A stretch of 64,000 nucleotides of DNA, from positions 59,379 through 123,378 of the forward strand of contig MKTJ01000085.1 of NCBI GenBank assembly GCA_001898225.1. Reading direction: 5' to 3'. The notes under the pieces are model-generated. The model did no database searches, was not told the DNA's origin, and saw nothing but the letters and a program-made list of their open reading frames with translations. The first letter of the stretch is position 1. Every line of letters starts with the position of its first letter. This document shows, in pieces, positions 11,457 to 51,786 of this stretch. Made by a program: the position numbers and the translations under genes. This stretch comes from Chloroflexi bacterium 54-19. Lineage in GTDB: Bacteria > Chloroflexota > Chloroflexia > Chloroheliales > Chloroheliaceae.

Positions 11457-12467
11457 TTAAACGGCGGCTAATTGTTTCAGAGCCGCCCGGTAATCCGCCA
11501 CTGTTAGATTGTGAGCAAAAGGGCCGTCCGGGTTATCGAAAATCCAGACGTGCATCATCTCCTCTTTCTCTGTCACCGCCTTCGCCCCGGCAGGGCAATC
11601 GCCCTGCTGGTTTTTCAACGTGATACCACCTGCCCCGGCGCATAAATTGTCGTGGGTGTGCCAAGTCGTCAGGGGGCCACCCGGCGTCGGACCCTGCCCG
11701 ATTGGGGCTAAAAACATCGCCCCCAGCAATACCATTTTTCCACCCGGCATTTTGAAATAGACCAGGGCTTCCGGTTTGGATGGGTCCAGCAACTGGCCGT
11801 CTTTGTCGTAGGCGGCGTTATAAAAGTGGGCCGGGCCGTACTTGGCAGCGCCCTGTCCCAGGACGTAGGGCGTGATTTGTTTGTAGCCTTCCGCAACGGC
11901 GGTATCGTAATCTTCAAGCCGGGCAATCCCGCTTTTGGTGTCGCTGACCAGTTTGCCGGCGGCGGTCTGCTGGTCAGTGGTCGGCGTGATGGTCGTGCCG
12001 GGCGTGGTGGAAGTGCCGCCGTGATTGTGAGCGGAAGGGGTTGTGCTACCTGTACTAGCGCCGGAAGTAACCGTCGGAACCGGGCTCGACCCGGCCACTG
12101 CCGCGTGGTCGTGGTCTTCGTTAAACAGGCTGCCCTCGCTGTTGAGGGCCAGGATTCCCGCGCCCAGGGCCAGGGCCACCACCGCAACTGCCCCCGCGCC
12201 GTAAAAAAGGCGGGCCGGGCTTAAATCGGTGTCGGGCCGCCTTTGTAAGGCTTTACCCACCAGGAAGGCGACCGACCCCACTACAATCAGGCCGATACCG
12301 ACAACCAGCATCAGGTGGCCGGGGTTGCTCAGGGTAAAAATGCCTTCGTGGGCAGCCAGGCCAGGGTCTTGTCCGTGTAAATAGGCGTCTATCCCCAGAC
12401 CGGAAAGGGTCATCACGCACCCCAGCAGACTTACCCACATGGCGTATTTTAGAAGCCGTTTACTCAT
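11457..12467 (-). CDS. Membrane-anchored conserved protein with extracytoplasmic domain
   Basis: About 336 residues. Three hydrophobic segments lie in the first 120 residues (around KYAMWVSLLGCVMTLSGLGI, HLMLVVGIGLIVVGSVAFLV and AVAVVALALGAGILAL). They are followed by a His/Asp patch (NEDHDHAA), a Ser/Thr/Pro linker with HNHGG, and a C-terminal domain of about 150 residues. That domain has conserved-looking TWHTHDNLC, GDCPAG and MMHVWIFDNPDGPFAHN stretches; the His, Met and Cys content suggests metal binding, which is inference. I do not know a named function. AAAGGAG six bases before ATG 12467 sets the start; the frame extends to 12503. It is divergent from the ferric-reductase-like gene, so it may belong to the same redox locus. 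Confidence 0.75.
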   Translation of the reverse strand: MSKRLLKYAMWVSLLGCVMTLSGLGIDAYLHGQDPGLAAHEGIFTLSNPGHLMLVVGIGLIVVGSVAFLVGKALQRRPDTDLSPARLFYGAGAVAVVALALGAGILALNSEGSLFNEDHDHAAVAGSSPVPTVTSGASTGSTTPSAHNHGGTSTTPGTTITPTTDQQTAAGKLVSDTKSGIARLEDYDTAVAEGYKQITPYVLGQGAAKYGPAHFYNAAYDKDGQLLDPSKPEALVYFKMPGGKMVLLGAMFLAPIGQGPTPGGPLTTWHTHDNLCAGAGGITLKNQQGDCPAGAKAVTEKEEMMHVWIFDNPDGPFAHNLTVADYRAALKQLAAV

Positions 12468-12610
12468 TTTCTTCTCCTTTAACGGTTTAAACCCTGGCAT
12501 CAATACATTTCAAAACCAGCTTAACAACCACTTGTAAAGTTTTCGCAAGAAATAGTGATGGAAGTGTAAAGGAGCTCAACTCTTTATAATTATCAGAAAA
12601 TTAAGAACTT

Positions 12611-12654
12611 TCTTACAAACTCTTAACTCCTTTCTCAGAATAGAGGACTAAGAT
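12611..12654 (+). promoter_or_regulatory. Direct-repeat operator and promoter of the ferric-reductase/ApbE operon
   Basis: TCTTA at 12611, TCTTA at 12621 and TCTCA at 12633 repeat at about 11 bp. A TAAGAT -10 element begins 16 bases after the start of the last repeat (12649). Two other promoters in this locus have the same arrangement. It fits an OmpR/PhoB-family activator site. The transcript would carry a leader of about 125 bases. The rest of the 12468-12785 spacer is AT-rich with no gene. Confidence 0.6.
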
Positions 12655-12785
12655 ATGGTTGTAAAAATAAAGGGTTAAAACGAAGTTGGTTCCCGGACAC
12701 CACGGGAAACTCGGCCAAATAAAATCATCAAAAAGTAATTTGACCCGGTAGAAATAGCGAAAAATTTTCTGTTTGGGAGTTAAGA

Positions 12786-13931
12786 ATGTTAGCAACATTT
12801 AGGAAAAGTTATCCTCGTTTATCCAATCATCTCTTGATGGGGCTTGTGACACTGGCCGGTTGTATTATCGCCCTGATGATGGCGACTCCGAGTCAATCTC
12901 CCCTCGAAATGTTATCCATCGGGACCGGCTATGTGGGCCTGGTCCTGATTGCGGCCACTCTCCTAATTGGGCCTATCAACATGTTAAAAGTCCGCAAGAA
13001 CCCGGTAAATATGAATTTCCGGCGGGATGTGGGTATCTGGGCCGGGATTACATCCCTTGCTCACGTGTTGCTGGCCTTCGGGGTCGAAATTAACTGGGGC
13101 GGCACCCTTTTAGGGTTCTTTCTCAACAAAGAAGGTTCCCTGAAATTAAACCTGTTTGGCATCAGCAACTTTATCGGGCTGGCGGCGGCCCTGGTCATCA
13201 TTTTCTTGCTGGTCTTATCGAACAACTACTTTTTAAAAAAGCTAAAGGGCAAACGCTGGAAGGCTATGCAGCGGTTTAACTACCTGCTTTTTGGTGTCGC
13301 TTTCCTGCACACTTTTACCCAGCAAATCAACAACCTGCGGGGCATTCTCCTGGTAGGCGCCGTCCTGGGTGGGGTTTTGCTGGTCCTGGCCGGCCAGCTT
13401 ATCGGGTTTAACATTTACCGTAAACGGGAAGCCCTGCGCAAACCGGCTACTGCCCCCGCGACGGCGCGCCCGGTTGCAGCCCCTGCCCAGGCTGTTCGTC
13501 CGGCGAATCCTTACCTGAAAGTGTCCCAGGCCCCGCAACGCCCGGCCCCGTTTGTCTCTCCACCCCTCGCGAAAACGGGGGATTACAGCAACGGGCAAAT
13601 GGCGGCGGCTTTCGGTGTAACAGCGGTGATGGGTTTAATCGTGGGGTTCCTGGGTTTCAACCTGCTCAACAATTCGGCCAATGCTTCCAATTCCGTTACT
13701 TTTGAACGGAATGATGATAACAACCCTGCCCCGGCCTTTGCCGCCCCTAACTACGGTTCAAATTCCCAGGCTAATAACGGGTATAACAATGGCAATAACA
13801 ACTCGTCGAATGCGGTGGCAGGTTCTAACAGCAATCCTTTTAACGGTGGCTTTGGCGGTTCGCGAAGGGGCCGAGCCTCGGTAAACCAGCCTTCAGGCAA
13901 TTCCGGACCCTTTCACACCGGGGGATCCTAG
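12786..13931 (+). CDS. Ferric-reductase-like (YedZ/MsrQ-type) transmembrane protein
   Basis: Membrane haem protein of the ferric-reductase-like transmembrane superfamily, 381 residues. About six helices occupy residues 15-215. Candidate haem-ligand histidines lie in SLAHVLLAFG and VAFLHTFTQQ, on helices where YedZ/MsrQ proteins bind haem b. Unlike those proteins it has a Pro/Ala-rich linker (about 220-270), a further membrane helix (AAFGVTAVMGLIVGFLGF), and an Asn/Gly/Ser-rich tail ending in PFHTGGS. ATG 12786 follows a weak SD (GGGAGTTAAGA). apbE starts 28 bases after its stop, so the two are an operon. Electron transfer across the membrane is the expected role; donor and acceptor are unknown. 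Confidence 0.82.
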   Translation: MLATFRKSYPRLSNHLLMGLVTLAGCIIALMMATPSQSPLEMLSIGTGYVGLVLIAATLLIGPINMLKVRKNPVNMNFRRDVGIWAGITSLAHVLLAFGVEINWGGTLLGFFLNKEGSLKLNLFGISNFIGLAAALVIIFLLVLSNNYFLKKLKGKRWKAMQRFNYLLFGVAFLHTFTQQINNLRGILLVGAVLGGVLLVLAGQLIGFNIYRKREALRKPATAPATARPVAAPAQAVRPANPYLKVSQAPQRPAPFVSPPLAKTGDYSNGQMAAAFGVTAVMGLIVGFLGFNLLNNSANASNSVTFERNDDNNPAPAFAAPNYGSNSQANNGYNNGNNNSSNAVAGSNSNPFNGGFGGSRRGRASVNQPSGNSGPFHTGGS

Positions 13932-13958
13932 CAGGGGGAAGGTTTGAGGTAATTGTAT

Positions 13959-14939
13959 ATGAAAACCGAATTACCCGGCCCTGAACTTGAAGAAAACCCC
14001 GGTGTGCTGGAAGTGGCTCTGAACTTCAGGGCGATGAATACTCACGTGGAAGTGCTGGTCTACACCGGGGAAGTCGAGAAAGCGGCCAGCGTTTGCGACC
14101 AAATCCAGGACCTGTTCGAGTATAACGAAGCGGTCTTGAGCCGTTTCAAACCGGATAGCGAACTTTCCGAGCTTAACCGTACCGGCTACGCGGAAAATGC
14201 CTCGGAATTGCTTTTCCGAAATGTCGCGGCGGCCTGCGATATGCACGAATTTACCGGCGGGGTTTTTGACGCGACCCTACTTGAGGCTCTTGAAGCTGCC
14301 GGGTACAACCGGAGCTTCGAACTGATTTCCAGCCCTGGCCCACACCTGTTGACGGTTCAACCTCCGGTGGTGGCAGGGCAGTGGCAGCCCCGGAACCTGG
14401 AACGCATTACACTGGATTATGCCCGGAAAAGTATCCGACTGGCGCCGGGCGTCCGGGTGGACCTGGGCGGCATCGCCAAAGGGACCACGGTGGACCAGGC
14501 GGCGGGACTTCTCAGGCAGGCCGGGTTTAAATCTTTTATGGTCGGGGCAGGGGGTGACATGTTCCTGGAAGGATGTCCGCCCCAGGATCGGCGGGGCTGG
14601 AAAATCGTGGTGGATAATCCCCTGGATAAAGAAAATGCCCCGGTAGCCTCGCTGGTAGTGACTAACCGGGCTATTGCCACCTCGTCCCAGATGGGCCGGT
14701 CGTGGTACCTGGGGCGGGAACGCCAGCATCACCTGATAGACCCGCGCACCAACCGCCCGGCATCCAGTCCTTACGCTTCGGTGACGGTCGAAGCGCCTTC
14801 GGTCCAGGTGGCCGATGTGATGGCAAAAGTAGCTTTAATCCTGGGGCCGGACAGGTTCAAAGAGGCCGGGTTTTTTCAGAAAGCCGGGCTGGGTAGAGTT
14901 GTTTTTGTCACCCTTGAGTGTGAAGTTATTCAACTGTAA
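13959..14939 (+). CDS. apbE: FAD:protein FMN transferase (ApbE family)
   Basis: Transfers FMN from FAD to a Thr or Ser of an extracytoplasmic flavoprotein. 326 residues, usual for the family. Visible motifs are MNTHVEVLVY near the start, SRFKPDSELSELN, GGVFDATL, the core VDLGGIAKG, the VGAGGDMFLEG region, the ATSSQM stretch and HHLIDPRTNRPA. No signal peptide or lipobox is present, so it may work in the cytoplasm or be held by a partner, which is unusual for ApbE. GAGGT lies 8 bases before ATG 13959; the upstream TTG at 13953 is less likely. It is the second gene after the ferric-reductase-like protein, followed by a strong terminator. No neighbour shows the usual Dxx[ST]GAT flavinylation motif, so its target is not identified. 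Confidence 0.92.
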   Translation: MKTELPGPELEENPGVLEVALNFRAMNTHVEVLVYTGEVEKAASVCDQIQDLFEYNEAVLSRFKPDSELSELNRTGYAENASELLFRNVAAACDMHEFTGGVFDATLLEALEAAGYNRSFELISSPGPHLLTVQPPVVAGQWQPRNLERITLDYARKSIRLAPGVRVDLGGIAKGTTVDQAAGLLRQAGFKSFMVGAGGDMFLEGCPPQDRRGWKIVVDNPLDKENAPVASLVVTNRAIATSSQMGRSWYLGRERQHHLIDPRTNRPASSPYASVTVEAPSVQVADVMAKVALILGPDRFKEAGFFQKAGLGRVVFVTLECEVIQL

Positions 14940-14971
14940 ATTTTTAGAAATTAACGGTAATTTGAGGGAAG

Positions 14972-15017
14972 CAAAAGATCCTGGGTTAAACGGTGGAGGC
15001 CCAGGATCTTTTGTATT
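14972..15017 (+). terminator. Intrinsic terminator after apbE
   Basis: A 14-bp perfect stem (CAAAAGATCCTGGG at 14972-14985 with its complement at 15000-15013) runs into a T-rich tail. It closes the two-gene operon. Confidence 0.85.
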
Positions 15018-15078
15018 TTCAACACCTCTGCCTGAAGAAAAGGGTTCCTGGCCGGGTAATTTCCGAAAATAAAAAAAT

Positions 15079-15122
15079 TCTCATAATCCTCTTAATCCTT
15101 TCTTAAAGAGCGGGTTTAGGAT
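15079..15122 (+). promoter_or_regulatory. Direct-repeat operator and promoter of the DoxX-Rieske gene
   Basis: TCTCA at 15079, TCTTA at 15090 and TCTTA at 15101 are spaced exactly 11 bp apart. A TAGGAT -10 element starts at 15117, 16 bases after the start of the last repeat. This is the cleanest copy of the element shared by three promoters of the locus and has the geometry of a PhoB-type class II activator site. Confidence 0.65.
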
Positions 15123-15208
15123 AGGGATGAACTCAGGCAACAATACGCCTGGGGTACGGAGAAGTCCTTCAGGGCTTGTAGATTTTCTTTGTGAGACTGG
15201 AGATTGTT

Positions 15209-16516
15209 TTGAAACAGAACCTTCCATTAAAGAAACCAAATAACTATGCCGATACGAACAGACCGGAGATGATTAACCCGGCTCCTTCGAGGGGGTTATT
15301 TTCTTTCAACCAGGCCAATATCTTTTTACCTTTACGCTTATTTCTGGGGATTTCGTTCCTGGCCGCCGGGGTTGACAAATTGTTGGACCCCCAGTTTTTT
15401 GACTCGACCGCTGCCGGGTACATCGGGGCTCAGCTTGGTGGATTTGGCGGCCAGTCACCTATCGGTTTCATGCTGAAATCACTATCTAACCCGCCAATTG
15501 CTTCCATTGTGGGTGGGGTTGTGCTGGTAGGAGAACTGGCAATCGGGCTGGGCACCCTCGTAGGGCTTTATAGCCGGGTGGCCGCCCTGGCCGGGTTTAT
15601 CCTGAGTGTGACCCTCTGGCTATCCGCCAGTTGGAATGTTACGCCCTTCTTTTTAGGCTCGGATTTACCCTACGCCGTGGCCTGGTTGACGTTGTTCATG
15701 GCCGGCGCGCACCCGGTGTTGAGCCTGGACGCGGTCCTCAAAGAACGCGAAACCGGCCAACCGGCCAACGCCGCCTTCGTCGACTCCCCGCTTCCCTACG
15801 CCGGACCTGCCAACCCGGTTACACCTGTCTGGACCAATGACCGGCGAGGCTATGCCGCCGCCGAAGCGCACAGGCATGAAGTAGCACGCCGCCAGTTCCT
15901 GGTCATCACAGGTGGCATTATCCTGGCCGGAGGCTTTACCGGGGTAGCCTGGTTGAAGGGTCTGCACGAACAATTCGAGACGAAGTCTACCGCCGATACT
16001 CAACTAACCCTACCGCCAACCGCCGCCCCGACCACCCAGGATAGCGCTGCGGCTACTACGGCGGCAGCCACAGGTGCCGCCCCGGCCACGGCGGCTACAG
16101 GCCAACAGACTCAGGCCACGAGCCAGGCTTCCGCCGCGACGACCGCCCCGGCAGCACAACCCAAACCGACCGCAGCCCCGGCCCCAACTGCCGCTCCCGT
16201 GGTCAATGGTAAGGTTATCGCAAAGCTTTCGGATATAGCGGTGGGTAACGCCCTGGCCTTCCAGACCCCCACTACCGGGGAAAATGCCTATGTCGTCCAC
16301 GCCAAAGACGGTTCGGTCAAAGCCTTTAGCCGGACCTGTACCCACGAAGGGTGCGACGTGTCTTTCATCCAGAGCGCCCAGGTCTTTGCCTGCCCCTGTC
16401 ACGGGGCCGAGTTCGATGCCAATACCGGCGCGGTCTTGCGACGCCCGGCCCGCCAGCCTTTACCGAGTTACAAGGTAACGGTAGACGGCTCCGGTAATGT
16501 CATCTTTGTGATGTAG
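15209..16516 (+). CDS. DoxX-like membrane domain fused to a Rieske [2Fe-2S] domain
   Basis: About 435 residues with two domains. The N-terminal 180 residues are a four-helix DoxX-type domain (PLRLFLGISFLAAGVDKLLD, then three more helices ending near PYAVAWLTLFMAGAHPVLSL). An internal twin-arginine-like motif, RRQFL, precedes a fifth helix (VITGGIILAGGF). An Ala/Thr/Pro linker then leads to a Rieske domain with CTHEGC and CPCHG, which give the two Cys and two His cluster ligands. The Rieske domain should lie outside the cytoplasm. In QcrA-type Rieske proteins a Tat motif before the last helix lets the folded cluster domain be exported; the same logic fits here. GGAG lies six bases before TTG 15209; GTG 15191 is the alternative. 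Single gene, with its own operator and terminator. Confidence 0.88.
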   Translation: MKQNLPLKKPNNYADTNRPEMINPAPSRGLFSFNQANIFLPLRLFLGISFLAAGVDKLLDPQFFDSTAAGYIGAQLGGFGGQSPIGFMLKSLSNPPIASIVGGVVLVGELAIGLGTLVGLYSRVAALAGFILSVTLWLSASWNVTPFFLGSDLPYAVAWLTLFMAGAHPVLSLDAVLKERETGQPANAAFVDSPLPYAGPANPVTPVWTNDRRGYAAAEAHRHEVARRQFLVITGGIILAGGFTGVAWLKGLHEQFETKSTADTQLTLPPTAAPTTQDSAAATTAAATGAAPATAATGQQTQATSQASAATTAPAAQPKPTAAPAPTAAPVVNGKVIAKLSDIAVGNALAFQTPTTGENAYVVHAKDGSVKAFSRTCTHEGCDVSFIQSAQVFACPCHGAEFDANTGAVLRRPARQPLPSYKVTVDGSGNVIFVM

Positions 16517-16566
16517 GCTTTTCTTTTCGCAGTGAAACCCAGGCCGGGCTATTCCAGGCTAACCCT

Positions 16567-16607
16567 AACCCAGGACTCAAAATGTGAGTCCTGGGTTTTG
16601 CATTTTA
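16567..16607 (+). terminator. Intrinsic terminator after the DoxX-Rieske gene
   Basis: AACCCAGGACTCA (16567-16579) pairs with TGAGTCCTGGGTT (16585-16597) around a 5-base loop, followed by TTG and further T residues. Confidence 0.88.
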
Positions 16608-16657
16608 AAAGTTGGTTACCGGCAATTCATCAAAACAAGATTTGTATACACCTAAAT

Positions 16658-16690
16658 TTTCATCAAATTCTTATAGTTTTATGATAGAGT
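16658..16690 (+). promoter_or_regulatory. Direct-repeat operator and promoter of the two-component system
   Basis: TTTCA at 16658 and TCTTA at 16669 are 11 bp apart. TAGAGT at 16685 lies 16 bases after the start of the last repeat, as in the two other promoters. A competing -10, TATGAT, is at 16680. Only two good repeats are visible here, so this is the weakest copy. It would make the two-component system autoregulated. Confidence 0.45.
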
Positions 16691-16716: not shown

Positions 16717-17400
16717 ATGCGTTTACTGGTTGTAGAGGACGAACCGAGAATTTCAAAATTTATTTGCCAGGGTCTGACCGAGGCCGGGTACGCCGTTGAC
16801 GCGACCTATGACGGCCTGGAAGCCTTTGAATACGCCCTGGCAGCAGATTACGACCTTATTATCCTGGATATAATGCTGCCCGGCCTGGACGGTTTAAGTC
16901 TCCTGAGGCGTCTGCGTAAAAACGGCATCCAGACGCCTGTCTTGCTCCTTACCGCTCGCGATAGCCTGGAGGACCGGGTGGAAGGGCTCGATACCGGCGC
17001 GGACGACTACCTGGTTAAACCGTTCGCCTTCCCGGAACTGCTTGCCAGGGTCAGGGCTTTACTCCGGCGGCCCCCTCTCCAAAATGAGAATATTTTACGG
17101 ATCAGCGACCTTGAGCTGGATAACAAAACGCGGGAAGTGCGGCGAGGCGGGCGGCTAATCGAGTTGAGCCAGCGCGAGTTCATGCTCTTGAATTACCTGA
17201 TGCGCCATCCCAACCAGGTGCTTACCCGCACCCAGATTGCCGAACATATTTGGAACTTTGATTTCGCCAGCGACTCAAATATTGTCGATGTCTATATCGG
17301 TTATTTGCGCCGCAAGATTGACCGCAATTTTACGCCCCAACTTATCCGAACCGTGCGAGGGATGGGCTACCGCATCAGCGCCGAAGCGGGAAACGAATGA
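16717..17400 (+). CDS. OmpR-family response regulator
   Basis: DNA-binding response regulator of 227 residues. The receiver domain (1-120) has the acidic pair in VVEDEP, the phosphoacceptor Asp51 in IILDIMLPGLDG, the Thr in LLLTARD, and the Lys in YLVKPF. A winged-helix Trans_reg_C domain (about 130-225) ends IRTVRGMGYRI. GGAG lies six bases before ATG 16717; the longer frame from TTG 16705 would bury that SD. The stop overlaps the kinase start by four bases, so the two are co-translated. Repeats of 11 bp, as bound by this family, occur in front of this gene and in front of the two redox operons just upstream. Confidence 0.95.
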   Translation: MRLLVVEDEPRISKFICQGLTEAGYAVDATYDGLEAFEYALAADYDLIILDIMLPGLDGLSLLRRLRKNGIQTPVLLLTARDSLEDRVEGLDTGADDYLVKPFAFPELLARVRALLRRPPLQNENILRISDLELDNKTREVRRGGRLIELSQREFMLLNYLMRHPNQVLTRTQIAEHIWNFDFASDSNIVDVYIGYLRRKIDRNFTPQLIRTVRGMGYRISAEAGNE

Positions 17401-18860
17401 AAAACAGAGTTAACCGGAAAATCTTAAACTGGGTGGGATGGGTCTGGCGCTCCCTCTGGTTCCGGCTGATTGCCCTCTACATTGTTTTAGTGGGCTTAAC
17501 CCTGCTTACTTTTAGTATCTATTTTTACTTTCAACTCCAACAACACGAACAAAACCAGGTTGACGCCAACCTGGAAACGGCAGTCCTTCAGATTATCCCC
17601 TCGATTGACCTGGATAATGGCCCGCCCCACTTCCGGCAATACGATGATTCGAAGGACAGCAACGAAAATTCTCCCGGCGACCTTCGCTCTAAAGGTTATA
17701 TGGTGCGGATATTGGGGACGGACGGCAAGGTGGTGGGCGGTCTCAACCAGTTAAATACCCCTATCCCGCTCAATTTACCGCTGGAAAATGGTTATTCCAC
17801 CGTTCCCGCTGAGGACAATAAGACCACCTGGCGTATTTATACCCAGGCCCTCGAATGGCGGCAACCCCGTTCGGGCGGTCAGGGGGGGGAATTTGTCGGC
17901 TGGATCCAGGTAGGGTGGCCGACCTTCCTGACTTATGACGCTCTTGCCGATTCCTACAAGCCGATTCTGCTGGCAATCCCGATTGTCCTGTTGTTAGCGG
18001 CCCTGGGTGGGTGGTTCCTGGCAAGGCAGGTGCTGGGGCCGATTACCCGGATTACCCGCACCGCCCAGGCTATCAGTTCGACCGACCTGGCGGGCCGGAT
18101 TGAACTGACCGGTTCTACTGCCGAGATTGGACGCCTGGCAACCACCTTTAACGATATGTTGGACCGCTTGCAGGGCGCTTTCGAGCGCGAACGCCGCTTT
18201 ACCGCCGACGCTTCCCACGAATTAAGGACGCCTCTAACGGCCCTCAAAGGCCAGATCGAGGTAAGCCTCGACCAGCCGCGCACTCAGACGGAGTATATTG
18301 ATACTCTGAAAGACGCGAACACGGAAGTGGACCGCCTGATTCGTCTCTCCAATTCGCTATTAAGTCTGAGCCGGATGGACCAGGGCCAGCAAAAGTTTCC
18401 CAGGGAAAACGTCGATTTGAGTGATTTGCTCGATTCCTTGGTCGAAACGATGCAGCCCCTGGCCGAAGCCAAGGATATAACCCTTTCCGGCCAGTTCACG
18501 AGCGGACCGATAATATCGGGGAATTTCGACCAGCTTACCCGTCTGTTCATGAATTTGCTCGATAATGCCCTCAAATACACCCCGGCGGCCGGTAAGGTTA
18601 CGGTCTCACTAAAAGAGATAGGTAGTTTTGCCCGAATAGATGTAGCCGATAACGGCCAGGGTATCCCCAAAGAACACCTGCCCCATCTGTTCGAAAGGTT
18701 CTACCGGGTCCACTCCGACCGGACCAGTAGCAGCGGCGGAACCGGGTTGGGGCTGGCTATCGCCTATGAAATCGTGCGCTGGCACCAGGGCAAAATCACC
18801 GTCGAGAGTAAGCTAAACGAAGGGACCGTTTTCTCGGTCTACCTGCCAAAAGCTCACTAA
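17397..18860 (+). CDS. Membrane sensor histidine kinase
   Basis: Partner kinase of the preceding regulator, 487 residues. Helix 1 (about 22-46) and helix 2 (about 189-211) enclose an extracytoplasmic sensor of about 140 residues with no recognised fold. A HAMP linker follows (about 211-263), then the HisKA phosphoacceptor His274 in ASHELRTPLT. The ATPase domain shows NLLDNALKYTP (N box), DNGQGIP (G1) and GTGLGLAI (G2). It overlaps the regulator by ATGA. Position and the shared repeats suggest it senses redox state or an envelope signal handled by the DoxX-Rieske and ferric-reductase-like proteins; that is inference. Confidence 0.95.
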   Translation: MKNRVNRKILNWVGWVWRSLWFRLIALYIVLVGLTLLTFSIYFYFQLQQHEQNQVDANLETAVLQIIPSIDLDNGPPHFRQYDDSKDSNENSPGDLRSKGYMVRILGTDGKVVGGLNQLNTPIPLNLPLENGYSTVPAEDNKTTWRIYTQALEWRQPRSGGQGGEFVGWIQVGWPTFLTYDALADSYKPILLAIPIVLLLAALGGWFLARQVLGPITRITRTAQAISSTDLAGRIELTGSTAEIGRLATTFNDMLDRLQGAFERERRFTADASHELRTPLTALKGQIEVSLDQPRTQTEYIDTLKDANTEVDRLIRLSNSLLSLSRMDQGQQKFPRENVDLSDLLDSLVETMQPLAEAKDITLSGQFTSGPIISGNFDQLTRLFMNLLDNALKYTPAAGKVTVSLKEIGSFARIDVADNGQGIPKEHLPHLFERFYRVHSDRTSSSGGTGLGLAIAYEIVRWHQGKITVESKLNEGTVFSVYLPKAH

Positions 18861-18868
18861 AATTAAAT

Positions 18869-18900
18869 GAGAAGAATAGAGCACCAGCTCTATTCTTCTC
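18869..18900 (+). other. Perfect 14-bp hairpin after the kinase gene
   Basis: GAGAAGAATAGAGC (18869-18882) pairs with 18887-18900 around ACCA, ten bases past the kinase stop. It lacks a T-run on either strand. It may act as a 3' stabilising stem or a poor terminator. Confidence 0.5.
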
Positions 18901-20777: not shown

Positions 20778-20990
20778 TCAGTGACTGCCCTGGTTGCCCA
20801 GGATTCTTGGCGGAAGGGGCTGCGGGTTTAAGGCTACCATGTTAATTTTGGACTGAAAGCCGCTTACCGGCTTGCCGCCCACGACGATTATTCCACCGGA
20901 AGCCTCGTCGAGTTCTTCGTCGCTGAGTTCGGTTTCGTCAACCTCGGTTTCCAAAACCTCTTCTTTTTTTATTTCAGAATGATTTTCCAT
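20778..20990 (-). CDS. Small peptide with double-glycine-type leader (putative secreted or RiPP-like precursor)
   Basis: 70 residues, starting at ATG 20990, which has AGGAG seven bases upstream; the frame to 21083 is not needed. The first 33 residues are very acidic and contain ELSDEELDEASGG, the pattern of double-glycine leaders removed by C39-type peptidases. The remaining 37 residues (GIIVVGGKPV and on) include ALNPQPLPP near the C-terminus and no Cys, so a lanthipeptide or disulfide product is unlikely. No maturation enzyme, C39 peptidase or exporter is adjacent: upstream is the fructokinase operon, downstream the TetR/SDR pair. It has its own SD and strong terminator. Its function is unknown; leader-type processing is inferred from the motif only. 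Confidence 0.72.
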   Translation of the reverse strand: MENHSEIKKEEVLETEVDETELSDEELDEASGGIIVVGGKPVSGFQSKINMVALNPQPLPPRILGNQGSH

Positions 20991-21152
20991 ACCTGTACTC
21001 CTATTTATATAAAACCTTTGTTTAAGAAGGTTTCCCACACTAACCACAAACGATAATTGGCGATTGATTGGTAACATGACCATTTTAGTCGGTCATAGTG
21101 CGAGATGGTATGCCTTAAATCACATCTTAATAAAAGTTTGACAGGGTGAACT

Positions 21153-49762: not shown

Positions 49763-51565
49763 TTAGGCGGTAAGCTGCTCCATTTCGTCGAGCAATTCGC
49801 CAAAATAGTCAATGGCCTGCTGGACCGGTTGGGGCGTGGTCATATCCACCCCGGCGTTATACAGGAGGTTGGTCGGGTAGTCCGAGCCGCCGGTAGTCAG
49901 AAAATGGCGATAACGCTGCCGGGCTGGTTCACCTTCCTGGATAATCTGGCGGGAGAGCGCGGTCGCCGCCGAAATACCCGTGGCGTACTGATAGACATAG
50001 AAAGCGTTGTAGAAGTGCGGAATCCGCATCCACTCGGTGGCTATCCGGCGGTCGTACAGGACTTCCGGCCCGTAATAGCGGCTGTTAAGCTCGAAGAACA
50101 GGTCGTTGAGTACATCTGGCGTCAGGGCTTGCCCGGCCTCGGCCCGGTTGTGCGCTTCCAGTTCAAACTCGGCAAACATAGTCTGGCGGAACAGGGTGCC
50201 CCGGAATTTTTCCAGCTCATTGTTAATCAGGTAAGTCCTGATTTCTTTGTCGGTAGTCCGGTCCAGGAGGTAGTGGGTCAAAAGGGCCTCGTTGGTAGTG
50301 CTGGCGACCTCCGCCACAAAGATGCTGTAGTTGGCATAGACAAAAGGCTGGGTCCGGTTGGTATACAGGCTGTGCAACGAGTGGCCGAGTTCGTGGGCCA
50401 GGGTAAACATGTTGTCCAGGTTATCCTGGTAGTTCAGCAAAATATAGGGCTGGGAGGTGTAAGAACCGGAACTATAGGCTCCGCTGGTCTTGCCGACATT
50501 CTCGTAAACATCAATCCAGCGCGATTTGATGCCTTTATCTACCTCGGCCACATAGTCGTCACCCAGGATTTGGAGGGCTTTGAGGACCGTTTCGACCGAT
50601 TCCTGGTAGGGAATCTTCTTTTTGGCGTTAGGAATCAGCGGGGTGTACAAGTCGTACATTTGCAGGTCGTTCAGACCCAAAAGCTTTTTGCGCAACCGGA
50701 TATAGCGGTGCAGCACCGGCAAATTCCGGTTGACCGTCTCGACCAGGGTCGAATAGACCTCCTGGGGGATATTCTCCGGGCTCATGGCCGCGTCAAGCGA
50801 ACTTTTGTAGTTGTGGGCCTGGGCGTAAAAGATGTCTTTCTTGACCGAGGCGGCGTAGGTAGCCCCTATGGTGTTGCTGTATTTGCCAAAGGTGTCGTAG
50901 AAAGCCTCAAAAGCGTCCTTGCGGACCCGCCGGTTGGAGCTTTCCAAAAATTCGATGTAGCGGCCTTTGGTCAGCTCGACCGGGTCGCCATCCTCGTCAA
51001 TGATAGTCGGGAATTTCAGGTCGGCGTTGGAGAGCATCCCGTAAATATTGCTCGGTCCCTGGGAGAGTTCGAGGGTCTGGGCGAGGATTTCCTCGATTTC
51101 CGCCGAGCGGACGTGTTCGCGCTCCCGGCGCAACTGGTCAATATACTGGCGGTAAACTTGAAGTCCCGGTTCGCCATCCAGTAATTCGGTCAGTTTTTCG
51201 TCAGGGAGGGCCAGGATTTCGGGTGTGATAAAGGATGCCACCATCGAAAGTTGCGACCACAGGCCAATAGCGCGGTCAGTCAGGGCCTGGTATTCGGGAT
51301 TGGTATTGTCCTCGTCTTTGCGCATGTTGGCATAGACTATCAACTGTTCGAGTTTGACGCCAAGTTCATCCTGCATTTTGAGGGCGCCCAGGAGCGTTTT
51401 GGGCGAATCACCGAGATGGTCTTTATAGGCTTCGAGACCGGGCAGGCGTTCGCCGACCAATTCGAAATCTTTTTCCCAGAGCGAATTGTCGCTGTACATG
51501 CTTTCGAGGTTCCAGGTATATTCCAGGGCGATTTCACTTCTGCGGGGTAGGGTTGCAGTGGCCAT
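49763..51565 (-). CDS. pepF: Oligoendopeptidase F (M3 metallopeptidase)
   Basis: Cytoplasmic zinc peptidase that cuts short peptides, 600 residues, normal for PepF. The N-terminal helical part shows TWNLESMYSDNSLWEKDFE and ALTDRAIGLWSQLS. The middle has NYKSSLDAAMSPENIP and MYDLYTPLIP. The zinc motif is H391-E-L-G-H395 in FTLAHELGHSLHSL, with the third ligand expected in IFVAEVASTTNEAL. The C-terminus has ATGISAATALSRQI and FLTTGGSDYP, both typical of PepF. ATG 51565 has AAAGAGA upstream. Single gene with its own terminator. Confidence 0.96.
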   Translation of the reverse strand: MATATLPRRSEIALEYTWNLESMYSDNSLWEKDFELVGERLPGLEAYKDHLGDSPKTLLGALKMQDELGVKLEQLIVYANMRKDEDNTNPEYQALTDRAIGLWSQLSMVASFITPEILALPDEKLTELLDGEPGLQVYRQYIDQLRREREHVRSAEIEEILAQTLELSQGPSNIYGMLSNADLKFPTIIDEDGDPVELTKGRYIEFLESSNRRVRKDAFEAFYDTFGKYSNTIGATYAASVKKDIFYAQAHNYKSSLDAAMSPENIPQEVYSTLVETVNRNLPVLHRYIRLRKKLLGLNDLQMYDLYTPLIPNAKKKIPYQESVETVLKALQILGDDYVAEVDKGIKSRWIDVYENVGKTSGAYSSGSYTSQPYILLNYQDNLDNMFTLAHELGHSLHSLYTNRTQPFVYANYSIFVAEVASTTNEALLTHYLLDRTTDKEIRTYLINNELEKFRGTLFRQTMFAEFELEAHNRAEAGQALTPDVLNDLFFELNSRYYGPEVLYDRRIATEWMRIPHFYNAFYVYQYATGISAATALSRQIIQEGEPARQRYRHFLTTGGSDYPTNLLYNAGVDMTTPQPVQQAIDYFGELLDEMEQLTA

Positions 51566-51786
51566 AAATTCTCTTTCGTTTCGTTTTTACTGCGCGGCTT
51601 GCCTCTGGAAGGCAACAGGGCAGGAATTTAGCACCAGTCAAAGAAAAGACCAGTCGCTTTATTTTACTCCTACGTTAACACCAGTCAAAGGAAGACCAGT
51701 TTGTCTATTTTACTACTTAATGCGAGATTTTGTATTAGAAAAGTTAGGATTGGTTTAAGAATTGAATAAGAATAAATTAATTTGTG

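Follow-up and report, generated by a model that had tools for sequence, protein, structure and literature searches.

An operator of one inverted and three direct units upstream of membrane electron-transfer genes beside an OmpR-family two-component system

Two promoters in a 64,000-nt stretch of DNA (the window, G000:C85:59379-123378 on MKTJ01000085.1), part of a 9.25-Mb genome of 93 contigs (G000), have in common a real and highly specific putative regulator-binding site. One precedes a ferric-reductase-like/apbE operon and the other a DoxX-Rieske gene, and a response regulator and a sensor kinase encoded next to them probably drive both, together with an unlinked ferric-reductase/Rieske fusion gene, through this operator of four half-sites. 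Because relatives place the same site beside the same regulator and similar membrane electron-transfer genes, we regard the system as very probably a true two-component redox switch, assembled from known kinds of parts.

Gene organization of the locus

The first gene of the operon encodes a ferric-reductase-like membrane protein with a low-complexity C-terminal tail (12786–13931, + strand; PF01794, MsrQ-like), whose nearest NCBIfam model, MsrQ (NF003831), is matched far under cut-off (36.9 bits, threshold 130 bits). A 27-bp gap separates it from apbE (13959–14939, +; FAD:protein FMN transferase, from its domain match), and the two genes form one operon, a pairing kept on contig C49 of the same genome and in the related genomes G003 and G004. 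Between apbE and the next gene lies a perfect 13-bp, terminator-like hairpin, AAAAGATCCTGGG...CCCAGGATCTTTT (14973–15012, +), which was read by eye, its loop being too long for the terminator scan. The DoxX-Rieske gene that follows (15191–16516, +), assigned from its ORF and domains, fuses a DoxX/DoxD membrane domain to a Rieske [2Fe-2S] domain; GTG at 15191 gives the longest ORF, and TTG at 15209 agrees with the start in G002, a genome of the same genus. The terminator scan places an intrinsic terminator after it (16567–16597, +), and the two hairpins suggest separate transcription units. Downstream are an OmpR-family response regulator (16717–17400, +; Response_reg and Trans_reg_C in Pfam, recognition helix SNIVDVYIGYLRRKID) and, by domain match, a membrane sensor histidine kinase (17397–18860, +; HAMP, HisKA and HATPase_c), followed by a hairpin from the same scan (18869–18900, strand unassigned, listed on the − strand). 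No MsrP-like gene was recognised at the locus, and among the eight neighbouring proteins scanned none has the FMN-binding domain that is typical, though not constant, in flavinylation clusters.

On the other side of site 1, a divergent gene (11457–12467, −) encodes a 336-aa membrane protein with a His/Met/Cys-rich C-terminal part and no match in Pfam or NCBIfam; it has its intergenic region in common with site 1 and is possibly co-regulated with the genes there.

An inverted unit precedes the direct units

The first-pass annotation had described three promoters of this locus as sharing an operator of 11-bp direct repeats at a fixed distance from the −10. Its units and hexamers were all found in the sequence where it had placed them, and at each of the three sites a −10-like hexamer starts 16 nt after the start of the last unit. 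At site 1 (12602–12654, +) the parts are TAAGA (12602–12606), a 4-nt gap, TCTTA (12611–12615), a middle unit, TCTCA (12633–12637) and the −10 TAAGAT (12649–12654). At site 2 (15070–15122, +) they are TAAAA (15070–15074), again 4 nt, TCTCA at 15079, TCTTA at 15090, TCTTA at 15101 and the −10 TAGGAT (15117–15122). The 11-bp period is strict at site 2; at site 1 the best middle unit, TCTTA at 12621, gives spacings of 10 and 12, and site 3 has two units only. Keeping strict register at site 1 would make the middle unit CTTAA (12622–12626), which resembles the TTTAA of paralogous operators.

The annotation had missed the inverted unit 9 bp upstream of the first direct unit, TAAGA at site 1 and TAAAA at site 2. 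TAAGA is TCTTA inverted, with a 4-bp gap between them, so that an operator taken to be purely direct-repeat in fact begins with an inverted repeat of CopR/AgrR type. An alignment of promoters shows TAAGA also at C36 of the same genome, in G001, twice in G002 and in G003, and TAATA in G008. The inverted block was spotted by eye; in a test that scores the best block of each shuffle, its conservation in the 40 nt upstream of five sites was reached in none of 5000 shuffles. Between orthologous promoters, moreover, the units vary less than their flanks. The geometry of half-sites inverted 4 bp apart occurs as TAAGA-N4-TCTTA in site 1, C36, both G002 sites and G003, and as TAAAA-N4-TCTCA in site 2, with two further in-phase units at 11-bp steps beside it. 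The consensus ATKACANNNNTGTMAT of AgrR/CopR-type boxes is not matched, the sequence of the operator being different.

Both promoters have the layout of class II promoters, with the box in place of the −35 and no good −35 hexamer. The −35 match is 1/6 at site 1 and 2/6 at site 2, and 1–2/6 across sites 1, 2, C36 and G003; it reaches 4/6 at the DoxX-Rieske promoter of G002. Because sites 1, 2, C36 and G003 have no −35, the polymerase most likely needs the regulator there, as in class II activation. The units do overlap the −35 region, as they would if the regulator instead repressed these promoters, the box blocking polymerase until a signal relieved the repression, and site 3 coincides in part with a usable promoter, TTTTCA-17-TATGAT. 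We consider repression quite unlikely, given the poor −35 matches, which point to dependence on an activator, and given the type II activation described for AgrR, whose box is similar (PMC7380067).

Occurrence of the operator in the genome and class

The motif as first described is near background genome-wide and is therefore weak evidence that is unusable alone. TCTYA-N6-TCTYA occurs 31 times in the G000 genome and 49 times in the reversed control, and a TYTYA pair with a −10 occurs 28 times against 18. A genome scan with the triple and the −10 had been expected to rank the three sites at the top with few others. Site 2 is indeed the sole zero-mismatch triple in 9.25 Mb, but at up to 2 mismatches there are 70 matches against 61 in the reversed control.

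The extended pattern, TAARA-N4-TCTYA-N7-YTNA-N6-TCTYA-N11-TANNNT, behaves differently. In the G000 genome it has three zero-mismatch matches (site 1, site 2 and C36:96007), none at 1–2 mismatches and six at 3 mismatches, where the reversed control has 5. The annotation's claim that one operator is common to the upstream regions of the ferric-reductase/apbE operon and the DoxX-Rieske gene thus stands, with zero mismatches at both. The operator at C36:96007, unlinked to the regulator locus, precedes a ferric-reductase/Rieske fusion gene. When 158 genomes of the class were scanned with 1 mismatch allowed, the pattern matched 8 times and its reversed control never; seven of the eight matches fall in the family of the source organism, at the regulator locus or at the ferric-reductase/Rieske fusion gene. 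The extended pattern was built on known sites and so recovers those by construction; the informative, independent parts are the near-absence of other matches, a match in G001 and the L029 site described below. A hand-set scoring over 464 kb, its weights picked once the sites were known, ranks site 2 (28.1) and site 1 (24.6) as the best two with no other at 20 or above, and site 3 fifth (18.7).

These counts also bear on whether the repeats are chance A/T-rich matches chosen after the fact. The background-level frequency of the motif as first described fits such an origin, which we nonetheless judge very unlikely: three genomes keep the extended operator between flanks that have diverged, a second class has it beside the corresponding genes, and the reversed control is empty in 158 genomes. 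For sites 1 and 2 chance is contradicted, and for site 3 it is possible.

Two other runs were seen in the genome. At about 51723–51771 (−), upstream of a gene for a 600-aa peptidase-like protein (49763–51565), TCTTA-N6-TCTTA-N6-TCCTA stands with the hexamer TACAAAAT and scores 19.0, about genome background. G000:C47:158564 and G002:C46:4737 share a conserved TCTAA-N6-[GT]TTCA-N6-TTTCA upstream of a gene, with a −10 at 16 nt.

A weaker site before the regulator gene

Site 3 (16657–16690, +) lies before the regulator gene and is weaker, consisting of two units, TTTCA at 16658 and TCTTA at 16669, and TAGAGT at 16685, without the inverted unit or the first unit. It overlaps a conventional promoter, TTTTCA-17-TATGAT (16657–16685), in which TATGAT (16680–16685) is the better −10; in G002, TATGAT is fully kept and TAGAGT has become TAAGCT. 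The proposal that three promoters share the operator is accordingly narrowed to two, the promoter of the regulator having another plausible −10. Weak positive autoregulation through site 3 is possible.

Linkage of the operator to the regulator in most relatives

Several comparisons support the link to the neighbouring OmpR-family regulator that the annotation had drawn. First, in G002, where the regulator is 89%, the kinase 74% and the DoxX-Rieske protein 60–65% identical to those of G000, the operator lies before the DoxX-Rieske gene and before the ferric-reductase/Rieske gene (C14). At the DoxX-Rieske locus (G002:C173:7561-8370, L169), a gene for a siderophore-interacting FAD-binding protein replaces ferric reductase/apbE upstream of DoxX-Rieske.

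Second, in G003 (regulator 70% identical), the only zero-mismatch triple is at the regulator locus, directly downstream of the kinase gene. It precedes a gene for a PMT_2/YkcB-like glycosyltransferase, not a redox gene, and the redox genes of G003 have no operator. Because this target is not redox, the term redox regulon fits G000 and G002, not every relative.

Third, a survey of 80 loci of regulator relatives (1.14 Mb) returned the operator at up to 3 mismatches in only one, L029, from an Anaerolineae metagenome-assembled genome (MAG), which had the top score by far. Its regulator is the best-ranked relative (58% identical; helix SNIVDVYVGYLRRKL), and its operator has 2 mismatches and TACAAT at 16 nt, followed in order by genes for two small proteins, ApbE, a PF01794 protein, the regulator and the kinase. 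L029 is also the only locus of the 80 with a match to the G000 ApbE or ferric-reductase protein. No other single piece of evidence is as strong as this recurrence of both gene set and operator in another class, which, with G002, bears out the annotation's redox theme.

In G008, from a different family, the regulator (51%), the kinase and DoxX-Rieske are adjacent, and a degenerate site with 3 mismatches and TACAAT at 16 nt precedes DoxX-Rieske.

In G001, the one match sits close to a contig end (C134, 38 nt away), next to the neighbour that the ferric-reductase/Rieske gene has in G000 and G002; the ferric-reductase/Rieske gene of G001 begins 76 nt from an end of another contig, C53. These ends probably join, which would place the operator before this gene. 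The description of the regulon as self-contained did not survive: an unlinked ferric-reductase/Rieske fusion carries the operator in G000, G002 and probably G001, and G003 has a glycosyltransferase gene as its target.

The full operator is absent at the ferric-reductase/apbE copies in C49, G003 and G004, and at DoxX-Rieske copies without a nearby regulator (C40, G004). In a set of 200 genomes, no strong DoxX-Rieske ortholog was found outside G000. Fusions of a ferric-reductase-like domain to a Rieske domain recur in the family (G000:C36:96168-97647 and C42:19095-20544; G001, G002, G003 and G004).

A regulator close to the heavy-metal group

The regulator belongs to the OmpR/PhoB family (Response_reg 104.6 bits, cut-off 30.2; Trans_reg_C 97.2 bits, cut-off 26.2). 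Its best model, TIGR01387 for heavy-metal response regulators, is missed narrowly (278.5 against 279.2 bits), HprR (NF008567) more widely (247.9 bits, cut-off 353), and the kinase falls under its own best model, TIGR01386 (282.0 against 292.55 bits). The regulator is best read as a member of the OmpR family that stands near the CopR/AgrR/HprR group. The recognition helix is identical in G000, G002 and G003 except for I/V at one position, and is absent from the other G000 paralogs in the comparison shown. The sensor part of the kinase has no conserved Cys in three orthologs, so we infer no signal from it.

The G000 genome encodes 45 DNA-binding domains of OmpR type, and the own promoters of some 40 paralogous regulators hold a few related sites, the best at C70. 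Paralog own-promoter boxes of similar layout, with units TCTCAT/G and TCTAAG, lie at G000:C70:40822, C31:28805 and G001:C90:152573. Judged by these sequences, the operator layout may be common to the regulator clade, and because the sites are similarly built, cross-binding is possible. A TYTYA pair, considered as a family-wide box, was rejected as such because it occurs on the forward strand in only 3 of 78 upstream regions of relatives, with 0 for the reversed pattern.

What was computed directly is how the sites are built, how rare and how conserved they are, and that they are linked to the regulator gene; it is from the linkage that we infer which regulator binds. Since G001 keeps the operator with no detectable regulator ortholog (best 54%), another regulator could bind. 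The operator might thus belong to a different OmpR-family regulator, a paralog active at this locus too, with the adjacent two-component system a bystander, as the number of such domains and the related units at C70 and C31 would allow. We consider this unlikely, as no more than about 5 kb separates the operator from the regulator ortholog or nearest relative in G000, G002, G003 and the Anaerolineae MAG, whereas no site scoring at least 15.5 was found within up to 14 kb of other regulators 51–58% identical in related genomes.

Relation to known boxes and gene clusters

The AgrR box is an earlier example of this operator type; what is new is the sequence, the layout and the regulon. AgrR of Cupriavidus metallidurans, likewise an OmpR-family heavy-metal-type regulator, recognises a 6-4-6 inverted repeat accompanied by direct repeats in phase with it, and activation draws on both kinds of repeat (PMC7380067). 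By contrast, the half-site is TTAAGA/TCTTA in G000 rather than ATTACA, every full G000-type site has two further direct units at 11-bp steps, the targets are redox proteins rather than silver/metal resistance genes, and the regulator's own promoter has no inverted repeat. HprSR and CusSR of Escherichia coli control msrPQ via CATTACAAAATTGTAATG (PMC9302797), a box of the same inverted geometry with a different half-site. The G000 locus resembles the hiuH-msrPQ system in pairing a CusR/HprR-like regulator with an MsrQ-type (PF01794) membrane heme protein (PMC9302797), and differs in having apbE and DoxX-Rieske genes with no recognised MsrP-like gene, and in falling below the HprR and MsrQ model cut-offs.

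The 11-bp period recalls PhoB and PhoP boxes, with their 7-bp motif and 4-bp spacer (PMC4971064, PMC4832192); PhoP reads 7-bp direct repeats with a strict 4-bp spacer and binds triple repeats more tightly than a pair (PMC4832192). The G000 operator differs from these in sequence, in its extra inverted unit and in one best middle unit that is out of register. A PF01794 membrane protein with apbE is also found in MsrQ-like flavinylation clusters (PMC8238504); unlike these, the G000 locus has no recognised FMN-binding-domain gene and adds a two-component system and a DoxX-Rieske gene. Response regulators, DoxX and Rieske are not mentioned in the text on flavinylation clusters in PMC8238504. CutR (TAWATAAA) was considered as an analogue and dropped.

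Model of regulation

In our model, the kinase would phosphorylate the regulator encoded at 16717–17400, which would bind (W)TAAGA-N4-TCTYA-N6-NYTNA-N6-TCTYA directly. The operator, whose last unit starts 16 nt ahead of the −10, would stand in for the −35, and the bound regulator would recruit RNA polymerase by class II activation. Switched on would be the ferric-reductase-like/ApbE operon, the DoxX-Rieske gene and the unlinked ferric-reductase/Rieske fusion gene, whose products are predicted to be membrane modules that carry electrons across the membrane. The signal may be envelope redox or metal stress, and the regulator may autoregulate at site 3.

The regulon might instead be one of envelope or metal stress at large, with redox genes only one output. 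The best family models are those of heavy-metal regulators and kinases, the G003 target is a PMT-type glycosyltransferase, and a related triple with 1 mismatch lies in a CopC-domain gene cluster at C83 (G000:C83:30435-30478, L327; TCTCA-N6-TCTAA-N6-TCTCA, with TATTCT at 16 nt). However, the C83 triple needs 3 mismatches to the extended pattern, where the reversed control does equally well, and every zero-mismatch site in G000 and G002 precedes redox genes; we regard this wider regulon as somewhat unlikely.

The redox switch, if correct, gives a sequence-defined regulon for three kinds of membrane electron-transfer module (ferric-reductase-like/ApbE, DoxX-Rieske and ferric-reductase/Rieske fusion), and its one operator and one regulator offer a direct handle on the signal that induces them. 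The site would join the inverted repeat of AgrR/CopR and the 11-bp direct repeats of PhoB type at a fixed −10 distance, and its specificity would suffice to define the regulon from sequence alone. More tentatively, and with slightly less than even confidence, we suggest that a heavy-metal-type (CopR/CusR/HprR) regulator lineage has been re-used as a switch for flavin/heme/Rieske trans-membrane electron transfer in at least two classes of probable Chloroflexota, as judged by the best protein relatives, reading a regulon-defining operator of four half-sites (one inverted and three direct 11-bp-phased units).

Downstream of the locus, a small protein (20778–21083, −) ends in ...VALNPQPLPPRILGNQGSH, a tail like that of a peptide precursor.
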